This document shows, piece by piece, positions 14,145 through 21,689 of a stretch of DNA of 35,872 bases. The notes under the pieces are model-generated. The model saw nothing but the letters and a program-made list of their open reading frames with translations. It had not been told where the DNA came from and made no database searches. Made by a program: the position numbers and the translations under genes. The stretch lies in contig JAGQPT010000125.1 of the NCBI GenBank assembly GCA_020426575.1, positions 1 through 35,872 on the forward strand, given 5' to 3'. Each line of letters begins with the position of its first letter. Position 1 is the first letter of the stretch. The DNA comes from Planctomycetales bacterium (GTDB lineage: Bacteria; Planctomycetota; Planctomycetia; Pirellulales; JAEUIK01).

Positions 14145-17100
14145 ATGTACCCGGACATATCCGCGAAGATATCCAGCATGTTTTCCCGCCGAGACAGCCG
14201 AGCTGGCGTGGCCAAACACCAGCGTCAGCGTCTGCATGCCGAACCGCTGGAAGATCGTCGCCTGCTCTCGCTGTCCGCCTTGACCGCGAACTCAGACGCG
14301 CAGCAGGTACTAATCGATACGGGAGGCCTAGAGGCCACGCAGCACAAGCTGGCCGCCGACTTTGACGGTGACTTCGTCGTCGCCTGGGTCTCACAAGGTG
14401 ACATCTACGCCCAACTGCTCGATCGCAACGGCGTGGTCATGCGCGACACGTTCCGCGTGAATGAAGTACCGAGCGGCGCTCTTAGTGCTCCGACCGTAGC
14501 AATGGACGCCGATGGCGACTTCGTCGTCGCCTGGCAGGGGCCCGGTCCTGAGTACGGCAGTGGCACCGACATCTACGCCAGGCGATTCAATTCGGTCGGC
14601 GTTGCACAGGGTGTCGACTTTCGCGTCAACTCGAACATCACCAATCCGCAGTTCACTCCCTCGGTCGCAATGGACGTAGTGGGCGACTTCGTGGTGACGT
14701 GGGCCAATCAGGGGCAAGACGCGAGTTTCTTCAACCACGTCAGCGCGCAACGGTATGATCGGTTCGGCAACCCGGTTGGCGCCGAATTCGTCGTCAATTC
14801 CCCCACCACGGAGATACACCGCAATCCCGACATTGACCTGGGCCGTGATGGCCGATTTGTCATTACGTGGGAACGAGGCCCCGACGTATACGCAAAACTC
14901 TACAACGCCGACGCGACGCTCATCCGCGACGAGTGGCAAATCGTGCCCAACCCTGCTTCCGATGGAACTGAATGGGTGACTTCGCAACCATCCGTCGACT
15001 TCGACTCGGCCGGCAACTTCTTCGTCGCCTACACCCGTGGTTCCTTTGACGTCGAAGACGCCGACGGTCAGTTCGCGTTTTTCTCCAACTATATGCAGGC
15101 GTTCGATGCGGCAGGAACGCTGTTGACCTTCCCCGATGATATTGGCCTGGGAATGGGGTACGAGTTCCAACTGGACAACTTGAGCATCGACCCCCAACCC
15201 AACCTGCGCCCCGATGGATTCGACGGCTTCAACGTCTTCTATGGCACGCAGACGCGCCCCACGATTTCAACCGACGCCGACGGTGACACCATCGTCGCCC
15301 AGGACGGCTACGGACAGGACGGTAGTCGGGGCTTCTTCCCCATCGCCGGCCAACAACCGGTGCTGCCGGTGGCGGGAGATCCCAACGGTGCGTTGATCGC
15401 ACAGTTCGCCGCCAGTCCGCTGCCGGGAGGCGAATTCAATGACTTCAACGTGTTGATCTCAGATTCTTATGTCAACACGAACGTCGACCACATCAACGAT
15501 GCCACGATCATCCGCGTGCAGGACGTGGACTTCGGCGACGGTTTTGGCCCGGTAATGTATGGCGGCACCTTCACGCTCGAGATGCTGGTCAGCGTTCAAA
15601 GCGCCACTCCCGGGTTCAGCACAACGATTAGCGAAGAACTGGCCGCGATCACGCTCCCCGAGAACATGAACGATTGGCCCCAAACGATTCAAGATGCGAT
15701 CCTTGCCCTCAATATCGCCAACTACGACGAAAACATGACGTACGCGAACAGTCCCGTACGCGTGTCGATCGTCACCCCGGCTTCACCCGACTTCAAAAAC
15801 GGCTTCTTCAACTTCCGCATCGACTACCAGGACGGCTGGCACGATCGCTGGATCAACTTCAACATCCTCGACAACCAGTTGGAGGCAACGGCCGAACCAC
15901 TCGACGAAGGAACCGAGCCGGCCGAACCCATGCCCGTCAACTTGATGATTGAGCATGGTTTCAAATCGGCGGGTCAGCAGATCAAGCGCTCCGACGTCGA
16001 AGGCACCTACCAGTGGAATCACCAGGTCGAAGTGCAACCCGACGGTGACTTCATCTCGGTGTGGGGTGAATTTCCGACCAACGAGCTCTATTACCGGCGT
16101 TTCGATGAGCTGACCGACACGGCCGGACCGATCGTCACCGATCTGATGACGGTAGACAATCTTTCGGTGAGTGACGGTGATTTCATCTTCGATCCGGTCC
16201 AGAAAATGACGGTCGTTTTTGACGAGCAGATGGCCGCCTCGACGGTACAAAACCCGGCAAACTGGGCCATCAATCGTCTCGACGGCGATTCACCCCAGCA
16301 GATCTACGGCGGCATCACAAAGATCGAGTACGGCTTGAACAAGTCATTCGAGCTGGGGCTCAGTCCGACTCCCACGAATAAGTGGGAAGCGGTGGTCACG
16401 TTCGACGGCAATGGCCCGCTTCCCGGCGTCACACCGCTCCAAGACGGCGTCTACGAACTTGTGGGCACAACAGCGCTGCGTGACAGGTCGCTCAACGCGC
16501 TGGCCCGCACTGGTTTCGTGCCGGCGGGCGAACAATTCGCCCGCGGGTTCCGGGTCCAGCTACCCGACGGAGACGAGTCGCGCGTCAACAGCACCGTGCC
16601 GGGCAACCAAGCCACGGAGAGCCCTCAAACGATTGCCGGCGACGCGGACGGAGATTTTGCGATCGTCTGGACAAGTGATGGCCAAGACGGCGACGGGCTC
16701 GGCGTTTTTGCTCAACTGTATAACGCCGACCGCACACCACGCGGCCCGGAATTCCAGGTCAACTCGACAACGGCCGGCGATCAAGACTATCCGTCGATCG
16801 CGATGGACTCGGACGGTGACTTTGTCGTCACCTGGACGAGCTTCAACGACGAAACGCTTTGGGACATCTACGCTCAACGCTACGATTCGGGCGGCAATCC
16901 CATCGGCGACGAATTCCTCGTCAATACCGAGACCGAGAGCATCCAGCGCTATTCAACCGTGGCCCTGGACAATGACGGAGACTTTGTCATCACCTGGCAG
17001 AGTTACGGTCAGGATGAGAGTGGCTACGGCGTATACGCCCAGCGTTACTCCCGCGAGGGTTATCGCGTGGGAGGCGCCAACGAAATCCAACTGTTGACAA

Positions 17101-20100
17101 TCGGCGGTGTACCGACGGGGGGGACGTTCAAACTCGATCTGGGGGGAAATACGACGGATGAAATCACCTTCACCGTCGACGACGACGGCGAAGGCACGGC
17201 GGAGAACATTCGCCAGGCGTTGGCACCGTTCGCCAACGTGGTGGTGACACCCGTGATTCCTTTCGTCCCGGTCGGCCCCGGCGAAGAACAAGATCCGGTG
17301 ACTGTGACCGACTACCGAATCACCTTCGTCGAAGAGGACGGCAGTACCGATCAGCCGGAAATGACCATCGCGGAAGAAAACATCACCGGTTCGGGTATAT
17401 CGGTCGAGATTGATACCGTTACCGAAGGAACAACGGGCGAGTTTCTCGCGAATCAGACGACTGGCAACAATCAGACGCGTCCCTCGGTATCTGCCGCGGC
17501 CAATGGCGAATTCGTGATCACCTGGGAATCAGGTGGGCAATTTGGCGATGCCGTCAACCGCACAAATATCGTCGCGCGACGATTTGCCAGCAACGACGCC
17601 ATCGACGATTTCGGCTTTTCTGGTCGCGGCGACTTTATCATCGGCATGTCAAGTCGGTCATTCGACGAGGCGCTGAATAACGTCGCCCCAGAAAGCGTGC
17701 AACCTCGCATCGTGACGACCGGCGATCCAGCGGACTACGTTGTGACAACCGGCCAAGGATTCGACGGCGTCGTGGCGCTGGAATACCCCGCGTTCGGCAA
17801 CTTTGAATTCTGCACCGGGTCTTTGTTGTTGACGGGGCAACACATCCTGACGGCCGCGCACTGCGTCGCCGGCTTGGCTCCTGAAGACGTTGTGATTCGC
17901 TTCGACCTGCCTTCTGGTCCGGTCCGTCTAGGGGTGAGTGAAATCCTCGTTCACCCGGGCTATTCGAACTATGCCGAGGGTAACGACATTGCGGTGCTCA
18001 CTCTGAGTTCATTCGCGCCGTCCGCCGCTGAGCGATACGACATCTATCGTGGCAGCGACGAGGTCGGCAAAGTCAGCACAAAGGTGGGATACGGACGGCA
18101 CGGTACCGGTACGGAAGGCGACACGGATTCCGATGGACGTAAACGCTCCGGCCAGAATATCTACGATGCCGTGGGCGACATTCTCGTTGGCACCCAGTAC
18201 GACTTCGGTCAAATCCTCGGCACACAACTTGCGTATGACTTTGACAACGGTGACGCCCAAAACGACTTCTTCGGGCAGGAGTTTGGCATTGGTGACACGG
18301 GGTTGGGCGACAACGAAGTCACTTCGGCTCCCGGCGACTCCGGCGGCCCAACTTTTATCGACGGCCTGATTGCCGGCGTCACTAGCTACGGGTTTGGCGG
18401 TTCCGGTTTCGTGCCCACGGACGTCGACGAGTTTTTGAATTCGAGCTTCGGCGAGGCCTCGGTTGACGCTCGAGTTTCGACCTATGCTACGTTCATTGAC
18501 ACCGCGACGGGCGGCGCCACCGGTGCCTTCCCGCTGGGCCCCGAGTTCCTCGTCAACGATCTGGCGCTACCGACAAACCAGACGCGCCCCGATGTCGCGG
18601 TTGATCTCGACGGCGACTTCGTTATCACCTGGACCAGCTACGGACAAGAAGATGGGCTGTATGGATCGGCGTACGGTTTCGTCGTCCAGAACGGCGTGTT
18701 CGCCCGACGCTTCACTGCCGATGGCGAAGGTGTCGCAAGTGAATTCCAAGTCAACGAAGTGACCAAGTTCGACCAACAGAATTCGCGCGTTGCCGTCGAC
18801 GCCGAAGGCGACTTCTTTATCGTTTGGGAGAGCCTCCAAGACGTCAACAGCACCAACACCTCGGGTGAACCGGACGATTTTGGCATCTTCGCACGTGCAT
18901 ATGCACCGTCGATGAACGGTGCTGGTCCCAACGGTGAATTCGGCCTACCCACCCGGATGAATCAGACGATCGATGGCGACCAACGTCTGGCCGGCGTTAC
19001 GTCCGACCACGACGGCGCCGTTGTGTACACCTGGAGTGGCAATGGCGAGCAACCCGGCGAGCAAGACGATCAAGGCGTGTTTCTGCGTCGGTTCGACGCC
19101 ATCTCCAGAACTGCCGGCCCGATTGTCACGGAAGTGCTTCCCTTCGACAACGACACGTTGATCGTGCGCTTCAGCGAAGACCTCAATACGATCAGCACGC
19201 TGGCCCCCGAGAGTATCACGAACGTTCTCAATTGGGCCATTTCACGTAACAACCTTGAAATCGACGAAGCGGTGGCCGACGTTGAGTTCGGACTCGACAA
19301 GGCGTTCGAGTTGGGGCTCACCGATCGCGAACTGTTCAAGTACGAAGCTGTCGTTGAACTGTCCGCGCCATTGCAAACCAACCTGGAGTATCTGCTCACG
19401 GTTCAAGACTTTGTTGAAGATGTCGACGGCAATCGACTCGACGGCAACTACGACGGAGAGCCCGGCGGCGATTTCAACGGTGTGTTCGTGATCAAGGGCG
19501 ACGAGGGGACGGGCCCCGGATTTATTGGTCCCATCGGTCCAGAAATCCCCGTCAACACCACGACCGAAAACAACCAGCGGGACTCGGCCGTGGCGGTCGC
19601 CCCCGACGGCAGTTTTGTGGTCGTTTGGACGTCAGTCAGCTCGGGGCAAGGCGACGTGTTGGCCCAACGTTTCGATGCTGCCGGTAACACCGTCGGCGGT
19701 GAATTCACGATCAACCAGGTCACGGTCGGCAATCAAGACCTCTCGCAGATCGCCATGAACGATGACGGCACCTTCCTTGTCGTCTGGGAAGGCAACGGCG
19801 TTGGGGATTCCAGCGGCATCTTTGGACGCCGCTTCGCGGCCGACGGCACGCCGCTGGGGAGCCAGTTCACCGTCAACACGACCGTCTCAGGTCTGCAGAA
19901 GAATTCCTCGGTCGCCCTGGACGCCAACGGCGACTTTATCGTTGCCTGGAGCGATTACGGATATCCCGGTAACGGGGCGGTCCGCGCACGTCGTTTCAAC
20001 GCGTCCGCCGTCGGGCAAGGAAACGACTTCCTGGTCACGACCACCGGACTGACCTCGCCGTCGGTGGCCGCCGACGCCGCGGGTAATTTTGTCGTCGTCT

Positions 20101-21689
20101 GGTCCCGGTTTGACGCCATCAACGGCTTCGACGTATATGCACAGTTGTATGACAGCAACGGCAACGCTAACGGCGTGCCGTTGCCCGTCAACGACTACAA
20201 GACTGCCAATCAAACCGGTTCGAAGGTCGGCATGGACGACAACGGCAACTTCGTGGTCGTCTGGAACAGCTTCCAGCAGGACGGTTTCGGCTACGGAGTC
20301 TATGGCCGACGCTTCAACGCTGCCGGCGTCAAACTGGGTGACGAGTTCCGTGCCAATACGGAAACATTCGGCGATCAGTACCAGGCCGACGTGCACATGG
20401 ACGGTATCGGCAATTTCACGATCGTCTGGACCGGTGAATACGCCGACGACGACGGGTTGGGAGTGCTGGTACGACGTTACACGGCCGACGGAGCACCGTT
20501 GGGTGTTGAAGAGGTCGTAAACACGACCACGGCCGAGGATCAATTCAAACCTGCCGTGGGGGCCAATGATTTGGGGCGGGCGGTCATCACCTGGACGGGC
20601 GACGACGACGATTTGCTCACCGACTTCACTGACGTCTTCGCCCAGCGGTACAATTTTGGCTCTGCTGCCTCCGGCTCCGTTCCCTCGGTGACGCAAGTGA
20701 TTCTTGCCGGCGCCAGCACCACGCACAGCGACTATCACGTTCCCAGTGGCAATGGTAACCAACTCCTCACGATTCCCGTCGGCGGTGTCGACGAAATCAA
20801 GATCGTGTTTAGCCAAGACGTCAATGTCACACAAAACGACCTCTCGGTCGTTGGGGTGACCCACGGCACGTATTCGTTCAGTGGATTCAGCTACGACAGC
20901 GGGTCACGAACCGCGACCTGGACCGTCAATGGGCTGGCACAGGGCGATGCGATCACGCTCACGCTCAGTGACAACGTCAACGCCAAAGTTGGTGGTCGAT
21001 TGCTCGACGGCGAGTGGGACAATCCAACGAGCCTGGCCGATGCCAGCAGTTCGACCTTCCCGTCCGGCAACGGCGCCCAAGGCGGCAACTTCATCTTCAA
21101 GTTCCGCGTCCTCCCCGGTGACGCCAATCAAGACAGCGTCGTCAACGGTCTGGATTACATCGTGTGGGCCCAACATTCCGATACCGTCGGTGGCGCGCAA
21201 TTCACCGACGCCGACTTCAACGGCGACGGCAATGTCAACGGTCTCGACTACATCGAGTGGGCGACTCACGTCGACACGAACCAGAACTCCCAGAGCCTCG
21301 TCGCCGAATTCGACGCTCTCGATTTCGGCAGCCTGTATCTGGACTTTGCCGCCAATTTCGACTCCTACGTGACCCCCAACACGTCCGGTGACTACGACGG
21401 TGACGGGCACGTCAGCAGCCTCGACTACCTACTGTTGGTCCGCAGTCTGGGGAACATACAATCGTTCGGCAGCGAAGCGCCGGTAACCGTATCCAGCTAT
21501 GCAGAGACGGGTAGCACGCTCCTGCCGGTGTCAAGCACGGAGGCCGCCGTCGACCAACTCTTCGTCGACCTCGACATCGAGAGCGAGGAAGACAGCGTGT
21601 TGGACGAGGACGTCGATTGGTTCGATATGCATACCGACGCCATCGACGAATTGGCGCTTTCAGCCGCCATCGACCTGCTGGATGAGTAA
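14145..21689 (+). CDS. Giant secreted repeat protein with internal trypsin-like protease and C-terminal dockerin
   Basis: A 2514-residue extracellular protein. EPLEDRRLLS at 33-42 is the planctomycete N-terminal motif of exported proteins. About 21 repeats of 45-60 residues follow, each with a core such as DGDFVVTWxSxGQDG, then YAQRYDxxGxxxG, then EFxVN; they look like beta-propeller or beta-sandwich units. Two Ig-like segments of the Big_5 type each begin TAGPIVT (about 660-810 and 1654-1790). A complete S1 serine protease sits between repeats 11 and 12 (about 1195-1470), with H1239 (LTAAHC), D1281 (NDIAVLTL) and S1399 (GDSGGP). The C-terminus has a dockerin-like pair of calcium loops (GDANQDSVVNGLDYIVW at about 2325; DFNGDGNVNGLDYIEW), and a third loop (GDYDGDGHVSSLDYLLL) near 2418. 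No sorting signal follows the dockerin, only an acidic tail. AGGAG ten bases upstream supports this start. Confidence 0.92.
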   Translation: MYPDISAKISSMFSRRDSRAGVAKHQRQRLHAEPLEDRRLLSLSALTANSDAQQVLIDTGGLEATQHKLAADFDGDFVVAWVSQGDIYAQLLDRNGVVMRDTFRVNEVPSGALSAPTVAMDADGDFVVAWQGPGPEYGSGTDIYARRFNSVGVAQGVDFRVNSNITNPQFTPSVAMDVVGDFVVTWANQGQDASFFNHVSAQRYDRFGNPVGAEFVVNSPTTEIHRNPDIDLGRDGRFVITWERGPDVYAKLYNADATLIRDEWQIVPNPASDGTEWVTSQPSVDFDSAGNFFVAYTRGSFDVEDADGQFAFFSNYMQAFDAAGTLLTFPDDIGLGMGYEFQLDNLSIDPQPNLRPDGFDGFNVFYGTQTRPTISTDADGDTIVAQDGYGQDGSRGFFPIAGQQPVLPVAGDPNGALIAQFAASPLPGGEFNDFNVLISDSYVNTNVDHINDATIIRVQDVDFGDGFGPVMYGGTFTLEMLVSVQSATPGFSTTISEELAAITLPENMNDWPQTIQDAILALNIANYDENMTYANSPVRVSIVTPASPDFKNGFFNFRIDYQDGWHDRWINFNILDNQLEATAEPLDEGTEPAEPMPVNLMIEHGFKSAGQQIKRSDVEGTYQWNHQVEVQPDGDFISVWGEFPTNELYYRRFDELTDTAGPIVTDLMTVDNLSVSDGDFIFDPVQKMTVVFDEQMAASTVQNPANWAINRLDGDSPQQIYGGITKIEYGLNKSFELGLSPTPTNKWEAVVTFDGNGPLPGVTPLQDGVYELVGTTALRDRSLNALARTGFVPAGEQFARGFRVQLPDGDESRVNSTVPGNQATESPQTIAGDADGDFAIVWTSDGQDGDGLGVFAQLYNADRTPRGPEFQVNSTTAGDQDYPSIAMDSDGDFVVTWTSFNDETLWDIYAQRYDSGGNPIGDEFLVNTETESIQRYSTVALDNDGDFVITWQSYGQDESGYGVYAQRYSREGYRVGGANEIQLLTIGGVPTGGTFKLDLGGNTTDEITFTVDDDGEGTAENIRQALAPFANVVVTPVIPFVPVGPGEEQDPVTVTDYRITFVEEDGSTDQPEMTIAEENITGSGISVEIDTVTEGTTGEFLANQTTGNNQTRPSVSAAANGEFVITWESGGQFGDAVNRTNIVARRFASNDAIDDFGFSGRGDFIIGMSSRSFDEALNNVAPESVQPRIVTTGDPADYVVTTGQGFDGVVALEYPAFGNFEFCTGSLLLTGQHILTAAHCVAGLAPEDVVIRFDLPSGPVRLGVSEILVHPGYSNYAEGNDIAVLTLSSFAPSAAERYDIYRGSDEVGKVSTKVGYGRHGTGTEGDTDSDGRKRSGQNIYDAVGDILVGTQYDFGQILGTQLAYDFDNGDAQNDFFGQEFGIGDTGLGDNEVTSAPGDSGGPTFIDGLIAGVTSYGFGGSGFVPTDVDEFLNSSFGEASVDARVSTYATFIDTATGGATGAFPLGPEFLVNDLALPTNQTRPDVAVDLDGDFVITWTSYGQEDGLYGSAYGFVVQNGVFARRFTADGEGVASEFQVNEVTKFDQQNSRVAVDAEGDFFIVWESLQDVNSTNTSGEPDDFGIFARAYAPSMNGAGPNGEFGLPTRMNQTIDGDQRLAGVTSDHDGAVVYTWSGNGEQPGEQDDQGVFLRRFDAISRTAGPIVTEVLPFDNDTLIVRFSEDLNTISTLAPESITNVLNWAISRNNLEIDEAVADVEFGLDKAFELGLTDRELFKYEAVVELSAPLQTNLEYLLTVQDFVEDVDGNRLDGNYDGEPGGDFNGVFVIKGDEGTGPGFIGPIGPEIPVNTTTENNQRDSAVAVAPDGSFVVVWTSVSSGQGDVLAQRFDAAGNTVGGEFTINQVTVGNQDLSQIAMNDDGTFLVVWEGNGVGDSSGIFGRRFAADGTPLGSQFTVNTTVSGLQKNSSVALDANGDFIVAWSDYGYPGNGAVRARRFNASAVGQGNDFLVTTTGLTSPSVAADAAGNFVVVWSRFDAINGFDVYAQLYDSNGNANGVPLPVNDYKTANQTGSKVGMDDNGNFVVVWNSFQQDGFGYGVYGRRFNAAGVKLGDEFRANTETFGDQYQADVHMDGIGNFTIVWTGEYADDDGLGVLVRRYTADGAPLGVEEVVNTTTAEDQFKPAVGANDLGRAVITWTGDDDDLLTDFTDVFAQRYNFGSAASGSVPSVTQVILAGASTTHSDYHVPSGNGNQLLTIPVGGVDEIKIVFSQDVNVTQNDLSVVGVTHGTYSFSGFSYDSGSRTATWTVNGLAQGDAITLTLSDNVNAKVGGRLLDGEWDNPTSLADASSSTFPSGNGAQGGNFIFKFRVLPGDANQDSVVNGLDYIVWAQHSDTVGGAQFTDADFNGDGNVNGLDYIEWATHVDTNQNSQSLVAEFDALDFGSLYLDFAANFDSYVTPNTSGDYDGDGHVSSLDYLLLVRSLGNIQSFGSEAPVTVSSYAETGSTLLPVSSTEAAVDQLFVDLDIESEEDSVLDEDVDWFDMHTDAIDELALSAAIDLLDE

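Follow-up and report, generated by a model that had tools for sequence, protein, structure and literature searches.

A probable peptidase socket in a propeller hairpin of giant planctomycete proteins

Why should a complete serine peptidase lie in the middle of a giant repeat protein, when enzymes of its family usually stand near an N-terminus? The window analysed here, a stretch of 35,872 nucleotides from a Planctomycetales bacterium (contig JAGQPT010000125.1), contains an open reading frame on the forward strand that is open over 2514 residues without a stop on translation. A sequence-only reading of this DNA had described an intact S1 domain within the encoded protein, placed in lieu of the linker between two repeats, and had proposed that the protease is presented on a fibre or adhesin, or that it cuts the giant protein itself at maturation. 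We followed up this reading by profile searches, structure prediction and comparison with related genomes. The features of the protein are collected in Table 1.

Table 1. Features of the giant protein, with positions in the window
Feature	Position	Strand	Remarks
Giant ORF, 2514 aa	14145..21689	+	three 7-blade propellers, Ig-like domains, dockerin
Candidate N-terminal planctomycete extracellular-type motif EPLEDRRLLS	14220..14267	+	PF07595 E 0.33, below Pfam cut-off
Propeller 1 (predicted)	14313..16124	+	blades begin at residues 57, 105, 161, 217, 280, 366, 620
Propeller 2, CylK-type 7-bladed, host of the S1 cassette	16584..19109	+	repeat profile and AlphaFold2 model
Insert domain i, blade 3 C-D hairpin, neighbour of the S1 slot	17067..17447	+	
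Flexible linker ahead of S1, residues 1152-1188, ends in R1188	17598..17708	+	mostly pLDDT < 50
S1 peptidase domain, residues 1189-1456 (approx.)	17709..18512	+	Pfam, profile, structural alignment
Catalytic His1239 (H57)	17859..17861	+	
Catalytic Asp1281 (D102)	17985..17987	+	
Catalytic Ser1399 (S195), after Asp1398 (D194)	18339..18341	+	
Propeller 3 (predicted), seven blades, residues 1803-2180, insert-free	19551..20684	+	repeat profile
Big_5-like Ig domain	20790..20993	+	Pfam 22.9 bits vs cut-off 23.6 (just below)
Dockerin type I	21114..21251	+	PF00404 44.9 bits vs cut-off 22.9, E 1.3e-11

The S1 domain and its place in the propeller

The domain matches the Pfam Trypsin family (PF00089) with 53.6 bits (cut-off 20.6; E 3.5e-14), and its triad of H1239, D1281 and S1399, numbered correctly in the earlier reading, stands in the TAAHC, D and GDSGGP contexts of peptidase family S1; NCBIfam returned nothing for the S1 loop of the window. 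The start given for it previously, 17725, is out of frame and leads into stops on translation, and the in-frame domain has the approximate bounds listed in Table 1. The claim of a complete S1 fold was borne out by structure prediction, since the S1 stretch of our model (model residues 377-655) aligns with the double beta-barrel of solved trypsins with a Z of about 27 (best match 27.2, 220 residues, 3.0 Å). Asp189 in the S1 pocket is the mark of the Arg/Lys-specific trypsins. The window S1 has Thr at this position, and across 38 related loops C, N, I, M, S, A and T were found but never Asp, so that the domain is not a trypsin proper and trypsin-like specificity is not expected.

A profile built from thirteen of the approximately 54-residue repeats was run on the 2514-residue protein and found exactly 21 copies in three groups of seven (residues 57-620, 814-1606 and 1803-2125). 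The S1 domain falls between repeats 11 and 12 (start residues 1102 and 1477), as had been proposed. Residues 814-1786 were modelled by AlphaFold2 from an alignment with 27 other rows (pLDDT 74.7, pTM 0.66), and among solved structures this module is matched best by the CylK seven-bladed propeller (Z 37.3, 366 residues, 2.9 Å), over model residues 1 to 841 and thus across the insert. With its seven repeats the module belongs to the CylK-type propellers, in which seven four-stranded blades close one ring. This match came from the VIA comparison; Foldseek returned nearly only S1 enzymes among the best 50 matches of the first model, and a PDB sequence search with the profile of the N-terminal half found matches to insert domains only and no propeller. 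The module model of an S1-free relative (L111) likewise matches CylK (Z 36.4), with the integrins 5e6r and 9t3y among its further fold matches. For propellers 1 and 3 we infer the propeller fold from the repeat; an insert of about 250 residues precedes blade 7 of propeller 1. CylK-type propellers have blade-bridging Ca2+ sites, and Asp-rich turns are visible at the level of sequence.

The final strand of blade 4 that precedes S1 in the model spans residues 327-334, and the next strand of the same blade follows the peptidase. The S1 domain, as modelled, is therefore located in the hairpin between strands C and D of blade 4 in propeller 2. While the location between two repeats was correct, its description as a linker had to be dropped, since the repeats form three sets of seven and strands of a single blade flank the domain on both sides. 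Judged by the general propeller topology given in the CylK paper (PMC8916777), the C-D hairpins would lie on the bottom face. Domain i occupies the equivalent hairpin of blade 3 in the model; it resembles repeats of the phage tail-tip cage protein gp23 (9d93, E 1.4e-10) and, weakly, the tubular mastigoneme protein 9ufe (E 0.00099).

The giant protein is probably secreted, as suggested by its extracellular-type motif, which scores below the cut-off, together with the C-terminal dockerin. It has 75 matches in its own genome, most of them on the dockerin part, which points to many dockerin proteins in this organism.

Recurrence of the module and occupants of the slot

Using a profile of the half-module b1-b3-i-b4, we found matches at E <= 1e-40 in 61 of the 396 genomes searched from the order, which is very probably the Pirellulales; three of these genomes (G022, G125 and G309) had partial matches only. 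A draw across the phylum gave matches in two of 392 genomes, namely the source genome and G022. The module is concentrated in family f17 (58 of 119 genomes at E <= 1e-60); outside it we found the source genome and G004, both of family f1, and G008 of family f3. Giant ORFs carrying the module reach 7783 residues (G065) and 11,118 residues (G776, with the module at G776:C411:70735-71601). CylK-like repeat proteins (L145-L208) occur, according to their record labels, across cyanobacteria, proteobacteria, Bacteroidota and others. We also considered whether the contig of the window is a contamination from f17 and rejected this, because the nearest relatives of its housekeeping gene for pantoate ligase are in two genomes of its own family (62 and 59% identity, against 55% for an f17 genome); this is not strict proof. 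The 770-residue neighbour had only partial and weak matches and is uninformative on the origin of the contig.

The slot was read wherever the half-module matched at E <= 1e-30 over the greater part of the profile, within the fetched regions and leaving same-contig copies (L132-L208) out of the counts. The first 65 slots comprised 53 with S1, two with an M8-like and one with an M10 peptidase, seven empty ones and two cut by contig ends. Three further slots from new genomes, read once the pattern was set, all held S1, which brings the S1 slots to 56 of 68; no other domain type was seen among these 68 slots. The seven empty slots measure 18-28 residues. Five of them are additional slots of proteins in which another slot is occupied (L092 twice, L094, L096 and L098), and the remaining two belong to L110 and to the short contig L226. 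A chance or frameshift artefact in the window was ruled out by the same placement of S1 in 55 other slots, all from other genomes.

The occupant of L111 was assigned to M10 (matrixin, PF00413) with a Pfam E-value of 7.5e-30, and those of L129 and L131 to M8 (leishmanolysin, PF01457) with 1e-8 and 2.3e-13, respectively. The sequences of all three have HExxH motifs and downstream Met-turn-like segments. The identity of the M10 occupant rests on Pfam, as the insert has a pLDDT < 50 over residues 337-575 of the second model. Among the S1 occupants, H57, D102, D194 and S195 are kept in all 53 aligned loops, with a median pairwise identity of 0.38, as well as in all of the 38 loops compared at residue 189, and 52 of the 53 match Pfam Trypsin; these rows are not independent, as they include the near-identical genomes G184 and G377 and identical copies of G113. 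By eye, H, D and S are also in place in the three slots read later, giving an intact triad in 56 of 56.

As a control, motifs were scanned in 145 ORFs with at least four repeats, comprising 643 inter-blade gaps longer than 60 residues, slots and named duplicates included. No HExxH, GDSG[GSA] or two subtilisin-type motifs were found in the non-slot gaps of this set. Outside the slot, HExxH occurs only in C-terminal tails, i.e., in L129, its named copy L142 and L131; in the two M8-like giants L129 and L131 it lies in the C-terminal approximately 500 residues. Plain domain shuffling, in which propeller hairpins accept any insert and peptidases have landed there at random, with no function that depends on the propeller, would account for the inserts that exist elsewhere, such as domain i in blade 3 and the large insert of propeller 1. 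It is difficult to reconcile with peptidases that are found in the blade-4 slot only, with the lack of any other domain there and with a triad that is kept in all 56 S1 slots, and we regard it as improbable.

The best reading of the C-D hairpin of blade 4 is that of a socket through which a giant exoprotein displays a peptidase. Presentation on a large surface protein or exoprotein, as envisaged earlier, gains from the finding of the module with its intact triad in many giants; a fibre or adhesin in particular is conjecture. In L096, the linker before S1 contains THGLGLEHSDP, which resembles part of the zinc-binding motif HExxHxxGxxH and is possibly a relic of an earlier metallopeptidase.

Activation and descent of the S1 occupant

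Activation of the chymotrypsin type requires a new N-terminus at residue 16, which pairs with D194. V1190 (model residue 377) corresponds to chymotrypsin residue 17 in the VIA alignment, so that the bond between R1188 and I1189 is the 15|16 bond; the window S1 possesses both R1188|I1189-V1190 and D1398, and the model has a pLDDT < 50 over residues 341-372 ahead of the S1 start. According to a hand count, 37 of the 53 embedded loops show two hydrophobic residues and then S/T-x-D/N, or a similar motif; K or R stands in front of it in 21 loops and Y, Q or other residues in 16. In several free relatives, the start motif comes immediately after a signal-peptide-like end or an LExRxLL motif, so that export could suffice to make the free forms active, while the embedded form would require its own cut. 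VVGA or VVGE follows the LExRxLL sorting motif directly in the free proteins L014, L018 and L024, hinting that the planctomycete extracellular motif may be cut right there.

These features suggest that the S1 version is probably a zymogen, turned on by a single nick that leaves the enzyme tethered. The expected nick lies in the hairpin and on its own would leave the propeller in one piece. HtrA-like S1 enzymes are active without a new N-terminus, and a constitutively active S1 without any nick, which would leave the slot idea unaffected, is a less likely but real alternative: it fits the 16 of 53 loops in which no start motif was recognised by hand count, but not the complete conservation of D194 or the motif visible in the majority of loops. 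Given the unrecognised motifs and the limited occurrence of K/R, activation may also differ between members.

Self-cleavage at maturation, the second proposal of the sequence-only reading, survives only as this one expected nick at the zymogen-type site. In its wider form, the S1 domain would cut its own giant at several sites to free fragments instead of digesting external protein. The enzyme does form one polypeptide with thousands of further residues, and a zymogen-like site adjoins it. Yet unrelated peptidase classes in the same hairpin would each need new self-cleavage sites, the variation at residue 189 does not point to a single shared cleavage rule, and empty-slot proteins of the same build show that cutting is not required to make them. 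The exchange of S1 for metallopeptidases speaks against a fixed self-cleavage site elsewhere in the chain, and we consider a maturation protease unlikely.

The comparison of the triad also took in 24 rows of free relatives, which, less an embedded copy of G046 and one duplicate, represent 22 distinct sequences; 20 of these keep the triad. The fragmentary rows L025 and L035 were dropped for length, and the own-genome trypsin matches L034 and L036-L040 were left out because their match to the S1 profile was too weak. The statement that S1 domains are usually N-terminal held for the free relatives seen. The 53 embedded S1 domains group together in the tree with one free S1 of G004 among them; a single clade of all 53 was not rejected (p 0.519), and in this alignment they look like one inherited capture. 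A separate capture in the lineage of the window is unsupported by these data. The genome G004, of the window's own family, has a giant with an empty slot (L110) and elsewhere a free S1 (L042), located close to the start of an RTX-like protein, which is among the closest to the window S1; exit of S1 from the slot, or its loss, is possible in this lineage.

The tree of the module with the slot excluded implies five changes of occupant, where three is the minimum possible. Neither S1 modules (p 0.117) nor M8 modules (p 0.666) were rejected as one clade, so that there may have been only three independent captures. Stated with care, one hairpin has captured peptidases of at least three unrelated folds.

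Proposed function and comparison with known systems

We propose that the S1 enzyme is made inactive, with its residue-16 N-terminus buried within the chain. A partner protease or another copy would then cleave the R1188|I1189 bond, where the flexible linker ends, whereupon the freed I1189 would pair with D1398 and render S1 active. The nicked enzyme would stay attached to blade 4 via its C-terminal side while the propeller ring stays closed, and the scaffold of propellers, Ig-like domains and dockerin would hold the active protease in the extracellular space, where it would most likely digest external protein. Of this scheme, we infer the export, the mode of activation and the substrate, as well as the continued attachment of the nicked enzyme. 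The exchange of S1 for metallopeptidases suggests that proteolysis at that place is what is kept, and external digestion fits this exchange better than a fixed self-cut. We assign a probability of roughly 0.6 to a peptidase socket in the blade-4 hairpin whose S1 form is a zymogen nicked at R1188|I1189 and whose scaffold holds the protease outside the cell. For the stricter version, a dedicated socket in which S1, M8-like and M10 peptidases are swapped on one scaffold and the S1 zymogen is nicked in the hairpin without leaving the propeller, we see the chances as evenly balanced.

If at least three unrelated peptidase folds do share one hairpin, selection would act on the presence of a protease at this place and not on a given enzyme. 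The socket reading would furthermore provide a function for giant planctomycete proteins of a class that lacks one, and it points to a natural scaffold that takes different enzymes in one loop. A literature search of titles and abstract starts, with most subscription papers and all preprints outside its scope, returned no exchangeable peptidase slot in giant planctomycete proteins. The propeller fold, the S1, M8 and M10 families, the dockerin and the insertion of a domain into a propeller, as in integrins, are already known, and so are tethered exoproteases.

Integrin alpha chains with an inserted I domain share with the giant a working domain in a loop of a seven-bladed propeller. The integrin I domain, a vWA domain inserted between blades 2 and 3, binds ligands. 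The insert described here, in contrast, is a peptidase in the blade 4 hairpin, and its occupant varies among relatives. The C-terminal propeller of CylK (7ron, 7roo, 7fh6-8) is the best fold match of both modelled modules and has the same seven four-stranded blades. CylK acts in biosynthesis as an enzyme with an active site made up of Arg105 and Tyr473, and it has a separate Ca-binding domain at its N-terminus; no peptidase insert is mentioned in the description consulted (PMC8916777). Free planctomycete S1 proteins, such as L059 of the source genome (S1 and dockerin) and L042 (S1 and RTX-like repeats), belong to the same subfamily by profile and tree, but carry S1 near the N-terminus and outside any propeller. 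The metallopeptidase occupants match M10 (PF00413) and M8 (PF01457) above the cut-off and differ from these families in being inserted in a propeller hairpin.
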